From positions 1 to 64,000 of the forward strand of contig JAAELK010000242.1 of NCBI GenBank assembly GCA_024226935.1: DNA of 64,000 nucleotides, in the 5' to 3' direction. The notes below the pieces were generated by a model. The model did not search any database. It saw only the letters and a program-made list of their open reading frames with translations, and had not been told where the DNA came from. Positions 35,355 through 37,388 of this stretch are shown in pieces (the first letter of the stretch is position 1; every line of letters begins with the position of its first letter). This DNA comes from Desulfobacteraceae bacterium. GTDB taxonomy: Bacteria; Desulfobacterota; Desulfobacteria; Desulfobacterales; Desulfobacteraceae. The position numbers were made by a program, and so were the translations under genes.

Positions 35355-35948
35355 ATGGAAACAATCAGGCTTATAATTGTAGCCGTTGGCGGACAAGGCA
35401 ATCTTCTAGCCTCCAAGGTGTTGGGAGAGGCTGCTTTGATTTCAGGGGTGCCTGTACGAATGAGTGAGATCCATGGTATGGCCCAGCGGGGTGGAGTGGT
35501 GGAATCTGCCATTGTATTTGGTGATGCTAAAAGCTCTATAATTTCCGATGGGGAAGCTGATATTTTATTGGGCTTTGAACCCGCCGAGACATTGAGAGCC
35601 ATTAATCGGTGTAACAAAAAAACCATGGTGATTACCAACACCGCAACCTTGATGCCTTTTACTGTTGCCATCGGACGCGGCATCTACCCGGATGTGGAGA
35701 ATGTCAAGGAGCTGCTTAGGGCAAAAACCGCAGGTCTTGTGTCCCTTGATGCCATGAAACTTGCCAAGGAAGCCGGCAGCCCCATGAGTGTTAATATCGT
35801 TCTGCTGGGTGCCTTGATACAGACCGGAGTTCTGGGATTCAGTAAGGAAAATGTGATTGAGGCCATACGTAGAAGGACCAAACCGGCCTTTCTTGAAAAG
35901 AACCTCCATGCCTTCGAATTGGGTATGAAGGCGGCTCAATTAAGTTAA
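35355..35948 (+). CDS. iorB: Indolepyruvate:ferredoxin oxidoreductase, beta subunit
   Basis: A 197-residue gamma-type 2-oxoacid oxidoreductase subunit, 26 bp after iorA. VAVGGQGNLLASKVLGEAA at the N-terminus, SEIHGMAQRGGVVES and LLGFEPAETLRA are typical of IorB. It completes the heterodimer encoded with iorA. A hairpin with a 15-bp stem follows 12 bp after the stop, marking the end of the operon. Confidence 0.95.
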   Translation: METIRLIIVAVGGQGNLLASKVLGEAALISGVPVRMSEIHGMAQRGGVVESAIVFGDAKSSIISDGEADILLGFEPAETLRAINRCNKKTMVITNTATLMPFTVAIGRGIYPDVENVKELLRAKTAGLVSLDAMKLAKEAGSPMSVNIVLLGALIQTGVLGFSKENVIEAIRRRTKPAFLEKNLHAFELGMKAAQLS

Positions 35949-35960
35949 TTTCCAAAAAAG

Positions 35961-36005
35961 TATCAACGGGAAAAATATTGAAACTTATGGTTTTTCCCGT
36001 TGATA
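35961..36005 (+). terminator. Hairpin after iorAB
   Basis: A perfect 15-bp stem (35961-35975 with 35991-36005, TATCAACGGGAAAAA and its complement) around a 15-nt loop. There is no clear T-run after the stem, but the arms contain A5/T5 blocks, so a partial U-tract exists within the right arm. Likely terminator for iorAB. Confidence 0.6.
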
Positions 36006-36081
36006 ACCGGAATGTTAGTAACTATTTTATCCAGGACAAAAAACCGGATACCAAGATAAAAACCATGGGGTGGAGGCTGAA

Positions 36082-36114
36082 ATGAAAAATGTAAAGCCAT
36101 GGGATGGGTATTGA
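36082..36114 (+). CDS. Mini-ORF 1 upstream of aroQ
   Basis: Ten codons encoding MKNVKPWDGY, with GGAGG five bases before the ATG. Its TGA is one base before the ATG of mini-ORF 2 (TGAAATG). The first six residues are identical to the AroQ N-terminus (MKNVKP). It was created by the 34-bp repeat. Translation is inferred, not shown. Confidence 0.35.
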   Translation: MKNVKPWDGY

Positions 36115-36115
36115 A

Positions 36116-36148
36116 ATGAAAAAGATAAAGCCAAGGGGTGGGTGTTGA
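36116..36148 (+). CDS. Mini-ORF 2 upstream of aroQ
   Basis: Ten codons encoding MKKIKPRGGC, ending in TGA one base before the aroQ ATG. The SD is weaker than that of mini-ORF 1. The arrangement would allow a ribosome to stop and restart twice before reading aroQ. Confidence 0.35.
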   Translation: MKKIKPRGGC

Positions 36149-36149
36149 A

Positions 36150-36605
36150 ATGAAAAATGTAAAACCAAGGGTCCATGTGATAAATGGTCCAAATTTGAAT
36201 ATGTTGGGTAAACGAGAACCCGGGGTATATGGAATTGCCAGTCTGGATGAGATCAATCAGCAACTTGATGTTGCAGCAAAGGGTTGTGGTCTGGAGTTGA
36301 GTTTTTTCCAGTCCAATCACGAAGGGATAATTCTTGATAAACTCCATGAAATTTTTGAAGAAAATCCTGCCGGTATTATTATTAATCCCGGGGCCTTGAC
36401 TCATACTTCTGTTGCTCTGCGGGATGGATTGCTTTTATTTTCCTGTCCCATTGTGGAAGTTCATTTGTCCAATATCCACAAGCGGGAGCCTTTCCGTCAT
36501 AAATCAATGCTGGCTGATATTGTCATGGGCCAGATTTTAGGATTTGGCCCCCAGGGATACCATATGGCTCTTAATGCTATTCATCAATTGCTTCAAGCTG
36601 TATAG
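36150..36605 (+). CDS. aroQ: 3-dehydroquinate dehydratase, type II
   Basis: Converts 3-dehydroquinate to 3-dehydroshikimate in aromatic amino acid synthesis. About 151 residues, the normal size of type II enzymes. VINGPNLNMLGKREPGVYG carries the catalytic loop with Arg and Tyr. INPGALTHTSVALRD and the substrate-binding VHLSNIHKREPFRHKS are present. I chose the ATG at 36150, inside the third repeat unit. A GTG 12 bp earlier lies inside the mini-ORF region. mqnB follows after 3 bp. Confidence 0.93.
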   Translation: MKNVKPRVHVINGPNLNMLGKREPGVYGIASLDEINQQLDVAAKGCGLELSFFQSNHEGIILDKLHEIFEENPAGIIINPGALTHTSVALRDGLLLFSCPIVEVHLSNIHKREPFRHKSMLADIVMGQILGFGPQGYHMALNAIHQLLQAV

Positions 36606-36608
36606 ACC

Positions 36609-37388
36609 ATGTCAAAGGGGTTAATTCTTTGTGCTACCCAATTTGAGATGGCCGGTTTTTTGGATCGATGTACCGGCCTGGTCAAGCGAAAAACCCCGTC
36701 GGGGTTAACTTTGTATTCGGGAATCTTAAATCATACCCCCTTTGATTGTATGATTTCAGGTCCCGGGGTTTTTAATACCGCCCATGGGTTGACCGTCTAT
36801 CTGGAGCATGTACGTCCAAAGCTTATTTTAAACACCGGAATTGCTGGGTCTTTTGGATCTGGTGCCGGTTACATCGGGGGAGGGGTCGGTATTGGTGATA
36901 TTGGCATTGCTGACCAGGAGCAGTATATCCATACCGGTGTGGGCTGCGATACCCACCTTGATTCCTGTCTACCATTTGATCTCATTGAAAATCACCCCTT
37001 AACCCGCCGGGGGATCTATCCCGCTGATCCGCAACTTTTAGATATTTACCATGGAGTTCTCATTCGGGAGTTTTCCGATTCAGTTGCCCGGGGTAATTTT
37101 ATTACTGTATCCTCCATCACCGCCTCCTGGGATCATGCCCAAAAAATTTATAAACGTTTTTCTTCTGTCATGGAAGCCATGGAAGGAGCCGCAGCCTTTC
37201 ATGTGGCAGCTTTATATCAGGTGCCCATAATTGAAATTCGGGCAGCTTCCAATTTTGTAGGAGAGCGTGATAAGGCCCGATGGGATTTTTCCCTGGCCTG
37301 TGACCGGGTCAGGCAAATTTGTGAGATCGTCGTTGGTAATGGGTTTAGAACAACGGGATTTAAAACTAAGAAGATTTCTTTGAGATAA
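36609..37388 (+). CDS. mqnB: Futalosine hydrolase MqnB
   Basis: A 259-residue nucleoside-phosphorylase-fold hydrolase that removes hypoxanthine (or adenine from aminodeoxyfutalosine) in the futalosine route to menaquinone. LILNTGIAGSFG, VGIGDIGIAD and the ribose-binding VMEAMEGAAAFHVA with IEIRAASNFVGERDKARWD match MqnB rather than other phosphorylases. It starts 3 bp after aroQ with no SD of its own, so it is probably translationally coupled. This implies menaquinone respiration, in line with ubiE later in the window. The 3' end overlaps the convergent cyclase gene by 23 bp. Confidence 0.9.
   Translation: MSKGLILCATQFEMAGFLDRCTGLVKRKTPSGLTLYSGILNHTPFDCMISGPGVFNTAHGLTVYLEHVRPKLILNTGIAGSFGSGAGYIGGGVGIGDIGIADQEQYIHTGVGCDTHLDSCLPFDLIENHPLTRRGIYPADPQLLDIYHGVLIREFSDSVARGNFITVSSITASWDHAQKIYKRFSSVMEAMEGAAAFHVAALYQVPIIEIRAASNFVGERDKARWDFSLACDRVRQICEIVVGNGFRTTGFKTKKISLR

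Follow-up and report, generated by a model that had tools for sequence, protein, structure and literature searches.

The window analysed here, a 64,000-nt stretch of forward-strand DNA from a Desulfobacteraceae bacterium (GCA_024226935.1, contig JAAELK010000242.1), contains on its plus strand aroQ (36150..36605), encoding a type II 3-dehydroquinate dehydratase of 151 aa (TIGR01088, 194.2 bits, cut-off 169.85), and mqnB (36609..37388), encoding futalosine hydrolase (TIGR03664, 129.5 bits, cut-off 124.7). The aroQ stop codon TAG is followed after 3 nt by the ATG of mqnB (36603-36611), and mqnB has no Shine-Dalgarno (SD) sequence, the energy with the canonical anti-SD being 0.1 kcal/mol. Because of this 3-nt gap and the missing SD, translation of mqnB is probably coupled to that of aroQ, and therefore changes in aroQ translation probably reach mqnB as well. 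On the 5′ side of aroQ are iorA (TIGR03336, above the cut-off) and iorB, whose best models fall below their curated cut-offs. The genus comprises 6 genomes including this one, and aroQ was found in all 6; the five congeners are referred to as G001 to G005, G002 being Desulfobacula sp. S2_67.

Just 3′ of iorB, an uninterrupted 16-bp stem hairpin was found at 35961-36005 (-21.1 kcal/mol, z -4.6), with an arm pattern that has no second exact occurrence in the genome. It is unlike an ordinary intrinsic terminator because its G+C pairs are located towards the base and its A/U pairs towards the tip. Hairpins of 15 bp with partly different sequence are present at the iorB-end position in G005, G004 and G002, and none was seen there in G001 and G003. 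A promoter-like TTGATA-17-TATTTT at 36000-36028 overlaps the 3′ arm of the hairpin in this genome, and such a site is no better than chance, one being found versus 0.7 expected.

The region 36063-36164, which includes the start of aroQ, consists of three 34-bp direct repeat units with pairwise identities of 27-29/34 (79-85%), all on the plus strand. Unit 1 (36063..36096) carries GTG 36070, GGAGG at 36072-36076 and ATG 36082, with a gap of 5 nt between GGAGG and ATG. Unit 2 (36097..36130) carries a GGGATGGG block, ATG 36104 and ATG 36116, and is identical to unit 1 at 27/34 and to unit 3 at 28/34 positions. Unit 3 (36131..36164), identical to unit 1 at 29/34 positions, carries AAGGGG at 36133-36138, GTG 36138 and ATG 36150, the aroQ start. 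Each unit thus has, in frame and 12 nt 5′ of its ATG, a second start candidate (GTG 36070, ATG 36104 and GTG 36138). Tandem Repeats Finder (TRF) reported a period of 34 with 2.8 copies at 36078-36171, and its score of 146 exceeded all others in the window. Within the array, the best self-match over 68 nt was 55/68, compared with a maximum of 40 in 60 first-order Markov shuffles of the whole window (lags 20-60); a second array in the window, at 1616, attained 53. The unit identities, the TRF result and the shuffle test bear out the tandem triplication that the sequence-only reading had proposed, and its coordinates, unit length, encoded peptides, stop-start junctions and the GGAGG on unit 1 were all confirmed. 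The array has three units, and a clear fourth was seen on neither side, since the 34 bp 5′ of unit 1 match the units at just 10-11/34 positions and the 34 bp 3′ of unit 3 at 14-15/34; a decayed fourth unit upstream of the array was not supported by the former value.

The ATGs of the first two units open mini-ORFs of 10 codons each, MKNVKPWDGY at 36082..36114 and MKKIKPRGGC at 36116..36148 (plus strand), and the TGA of each is located one base 5′ of the ATG of the next unit, giving TGA-A-ATG junctions at 36112-36118 and 36146-36152. According to a review, translational coupling is efficient when the stop-start spacing is -4 to +3 nt (PMC12548453), and the +1-nt spacing of both junctions is within this best range. 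Nevertheless, the geometry follows from the way in which the units are built. The core TGAAATGA carries TGA in both other frames, and because of these stops a duplication that shifts the frame produces chained mini-ORFs by default. When duplications with periods of 30-39 were simulated, a stop came to lie at position -4 or +1 of the following ATG with all periods that are not multiples of 3. The mini-ORF chain requires no selection to arise. A function of the peptides was also rejected: the common MKNVKP/MKKIKP is the copied N-terminus of AroQ, the second halves of the peptides derive from the SD part of the unit, and the two changes in unit 2 alter peptide residues. Therefore, neither the mini-ORF geometry nor the similarity of the peptides to AroQ, which had been read as hints of function, is evidence for it, both being automatic when a gene start is duplicated out of frame. 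This means that a single short duplication of a gene start can suffice to generate a row of coupled leader ORFs in one step. Natural upstream ORFs would then evolve easily, and the result offers a clean null model under which such chains are not to be taken as functional from geometry alone.

SD energies were calculated with the canonical anti-SD, a standard sequence that may differ from the 16S 3′ end of this genome, and were -9.3 kcal/mol for ATG 36082, -6.9 for ATG 36116 and -7.7 for ATG 36150. The strongest SD is thus the GGAGG of unit 1, as had been noted from inspection of the letters, and the ATG of aroQ has its own SD, AAGGGG. GTG 36138 has no SD, its best value being only -0.9 kcal/mol. 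For this reason, ATG 36150 in the third unit is the most likely aroQ start here, as first assigned, the start having most likely shifted from an older GTG position. The corresponding GTG codons of four congeners show -5.3 to -10.2 kcal/mol, their SD spacing of 10-11 nt being rather long. A possible counterpart of the congeners' SD was found by eye at 36033..36041 on the plus strand (AGGACAAAA); AGGACAAAA stands 105 nt before GTG 36138, and in G005 the AGGAC begins 15 nt before the GTG. The match is uncertain, since automatic alignment placed the congeners' AGGAC against unit 2 and not against AGGACAAAA.

The local fold at ATG 36150 was -4.5 kcal/mol versus -11.8 at unit 1, so that among the three ATGs that of aroQ has the least structure around it, and unit 1 is located in the most structured part. 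The better SD of unit 1 is partly offset by this stronger local fold. Leaders with different unit numbers were also folded, and a clear structural switch was not found among them. Because the aroQ ATG has its own SD in weakly structured RNA, re-initiation is possible and not required; the idea that ribosomes need to pass along the chain to reach aroQ was not supported.

Unit 3 aligns without gaps to the aroQ start region of the five congeners, and in all five this region is single, as would be expected if a translation initiation region had been duplicated in tandem in this genome. Four of the five have a GTG that aligns with GTG 36138 and is their likely start; G003 has GTA at this position and ATG at the position of 36150. 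The comparison was extended to the family, where aroQ was matched in 75 of 86 genomes; 68 of the 75 were examined, 7 with incomplete aroQ being left out. Together with the best 80 of 584 confirmed named loci, this gave 150 aroQ loci, of which at least 6 duplicate another locus, so that at most 144 are distinct. When these were scanned for adjacent copies of period 18-99 spanning the aroQ start, a repeat of high identity was found at one of the 150, that of this genome (34 bp, 85%), and the next best were repeats of 22 bp (77%) and 32 bp (69%). Comparison of the unit number among relatives, the check proposed together with the original observation, therefore yielded one unit in each relative examined and no variable array.

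The age of the array was considered from the divergence of its units. Among the units, 9 of 34 columns vary, with pairwise differences of 15-21%, and codons 8-148 of aroQ are 77-82% identical to those of the congeners at the nucleotide level (57-66% at third positions). If the rates are comparable, unit identities of 79-85% versus these aroQ values indicate that the array, although not very recent, is younger than the splits between the species. The longest run that is invariant across the units is the 12-nt block TGAAATGAAAAA around the start (P = 0.094), and selection on the stop-start junction is thus not significant by this measure. In a neutral simulation, in which runs losing the ATG of aroQ were scored as failures, both mini-ORFs stayed intact in 25%, 21%, 18% and 13% of cases at 8, 9, 10 and 12 substitutions, respectively. 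The retention of the three ATGs, both junctions and the 34-bp phase is somewhat above the expectation from drift, which counts against a neutral reading without being significant, and the GGAGG, present on unit 1 alone, could have been selected. A significant sign of selection is absent, although selection that is weak might go unnoticed given the small number of sites.

A further point against neutrality came from a survey of 418,014 bases in 41 pieces including the window (about 7% of the genome, 330 ORFs of at least 90 aa). TRF gave 15 rows with a period of at least 15 and a score of at least 60, corresponding to 12 distinct arrays, and among these the aroQ array alone spans an ORF start. 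As to the other arrays, 18/36-bp repeats are present at 1618-1726 within the minus-strand ORF 443-2998, and a 66-bp repeat of 8.5 copies is located within another ORF of this genome (L190:711-1274).

Slipped-strand expansion, one of the origins suggested from the sequence, is plausible. In two of the five congeners (G005 and G001), two copies of GGGTG are spaced 33 nt apart, at -14 and +19 when counted from the codon that aligns with ATG 36150, and the downstream copy lies in the aroQ codons for Arg-Val. G003 has a near pair, GGGTA and GGGTG, at these positions; G004 has only the downstream GGGTG, and G002 has AGGTG and GGGTC. That the exact pair is present in just two of the five was counted against slippage. 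An ancestor with such a pair could have slipped during copying, and slippage of 33 nt between the GGGTG copies would give an in-frame 33-bp duplication encoding VGVEMKNVKPR per unit. Since the observed period is 34 and the lag of the GGGTG copies is 33, one extra base must be assumed. This base at the junction would have produced the period of 34, putting each unit one frame off the next, and would have led to separate mini-ORFs where an in-frame event would have extended the N-terminus. By way of the stops in TGAAATGA, each upstream copy would then have become a 10-codon ORF whose stop is one base 5′ of the following ATG. The new aroQ SD, AAGGGG, resembles the aroQ codons CCA-AGG-G downstream of the start and may have arisen through the duplication itself, the copy junction having placed these codons again 5′ of the following start; this SD would favour ATG 36150 over the GTG position used earlier. 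Some ribosomes probably bind efficiently at unit 1, translate the mini-ORFs and re-initiate in part, and others would load directly at unit 3 in parallel. For AroQ-MqnB, the overall effect is probably modest and would have come about without specific selection. Taken together, we consider it reasonably probable that the array is a lineage-specific slipped-strand duplication to three units, with a probably modest effect on AroQ-MqnB and no significant evidence of adaptation.

In engineered bicistronic designs, the second SD is placed inside the leader ORF, and the aroQ array is alike in this respect. It also shares with bicistronic design, and with upstream-ORF coupling as the review outlines it, a short leader ORF whose stop abuts the start of the gene (PMC12548453). 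The aroQ array differs in having two chained leaders, in being natural and in that its action is putative. Of the precedents found, the closest is a duplication of 38 bp upstream of argB reported from a laboratory evolution experiment with E. coli (PMC6941894). From the coordinates listed there, we infer that it spans the start codon, approximately from -13 to +25; like the aroQ array, it is therefore short, located over a start codon and of a length that is not a multiple of 3. Six upstream mutations returned to the parent raised the ArgB protein 2.6-8.2-fold, and the strain list suggests that the duplication was among the six (PMC6941894). It differs from the aroQ array in the strong laboratory selection and the single extra copy, and the effect is a range over six mutations, which is discussed there in terms of RNA folding and not of coupled mini-ORFs (PMC6941894).

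Two families of natural repeats are also comparable. Mycobacterial interspersed repetitive units (MIRUs), as summarized in the review, are short repeats that carry an ORF at gene starts, with a stop within a few bases of the next start and likely coupling (PMC12548453, citing Supply et al. 1997). They differ in being apparently mobile and coupled at -4 nt, the aroQ array being single and derived from the gene's own start (PMC12548453). MIRUs are dispersed at many genome sites, and the exact TGAAATG-27-TGAAATG pattern occurs twice in the 6.09-Mb assembly, both times in the aroQ array. The TAACTGA direct repeats of marine Beggiatoaceae are likewise located just 5′ of starts, with a suggested translational role; they differ in having a 7-bp unit, in forming 169 sets in one genome and in that, as they are described, no start codon is inside the unit (PMC4679880). 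No natural triplicated gene start was found in the literature searched, which was mostly open-access, and this does not prove its absence. The aroQ array is a variant of known things, a duplication of a start region that happens to form a short coupled chain.

Among the alternatives, the one that survives best is a maintained booster or tuner, in which unit 1 recruits ribosomes through its GGAGG, two re-initiations follow, and the unit number sets the level of AroQ and of the coupled MqnB; such an array would act in the manner of an engineered bicistronic design having two leader cistrons. The position of the best SD on unit 1, the +1-nt spacing inside the efficient coupling range (PMC12548453), the lack of an SD at an mqnB that begins 3 nt past aroQ, and the argB duplication, which the strain list suggests was among the mutations that raised ArgB (PMC6941894), are consistent with it. 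However, the ATG of aroQ already has a usable SD and little structure, unit 1 is the most structured, and some ribosomes would be expected to drop off over two rounds of re-initiation. With the array kept in no relative examined and the junctions under no significant constraint, we regard a maintained booster as unlikely, although it has a real chance. A somewhat smaller chance is given to its boldest form, a natural two-leader relay that passes ribosomes from a strong site to aroQ and then to mqnB, with the unit number as a heritable dial.

The opposite possibility, that the array is an inert repeat with untranslated mini-ORFs, would apply if transcription starts within the array or if initiation occurs essentially at unit 3 alone. 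ATG 36150, the least structured and with its own SD, would suit the latter, and the sole promoter-like site, at 36000-36028, being no better than chance leaves room for the former. Nevertheless, the strongest SD, with good spacing, is on unit 1, and either that promoter-like site or read-through from iorAB would put the whole array in the mRNA, so that an inert array appears improbable.

Tandem repeats can gain or lose units through slippage, and with a 34-bp period each such event would shift the frame. A contingency locus, in which slippage alters the unit number so frequently that AroQ differs among cells or strains, is nevertheless very improbable, since units of just 79-85% identity should slip at a lower rate and no genome examined, all from other species, had another unit number above one. 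Equally slight is the chance of an aromatic amino acid leader-peptide attenuator or a repeated DNA or RNA binding site: mini-ORF 1 (MKNVKPWDGY) has Trp and Tyr codons and the 34-bp spacing is regular, but mini-ORF 2 has neither Trp nor Tyr, a simple consensus scan of 35900-36260 gave no terminator-like site, the four Rfam matches were all below the gathering score, and the unit is the aroQ start itself, single in relatives.

Similar arrays were sought across the family. With E up to 1, many short matches were obtained, and among the matches listed there were 15 loci, 5 of which are aroQ loci (L032-L035 and L040). At 8 of the listed loci (L036-L039, L041, L042, L044 and L046) no array was seen around the match, L043 and L045 being left out. 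The pattern TGAAATGA-N16-44-TGAAATGA was matched in 28 of the 86 genomes, this one included. Judged from the matched letters alone, many of the other matches look like repeats within coding sequence. The match in G066 is an apparent chance pair at one start, and that in G080 is an intergenic purine-rich repeat without a gene start. The repeats of G080 (L220:614-661) are GTGAAATGAGG-like and are located away from gene starts.
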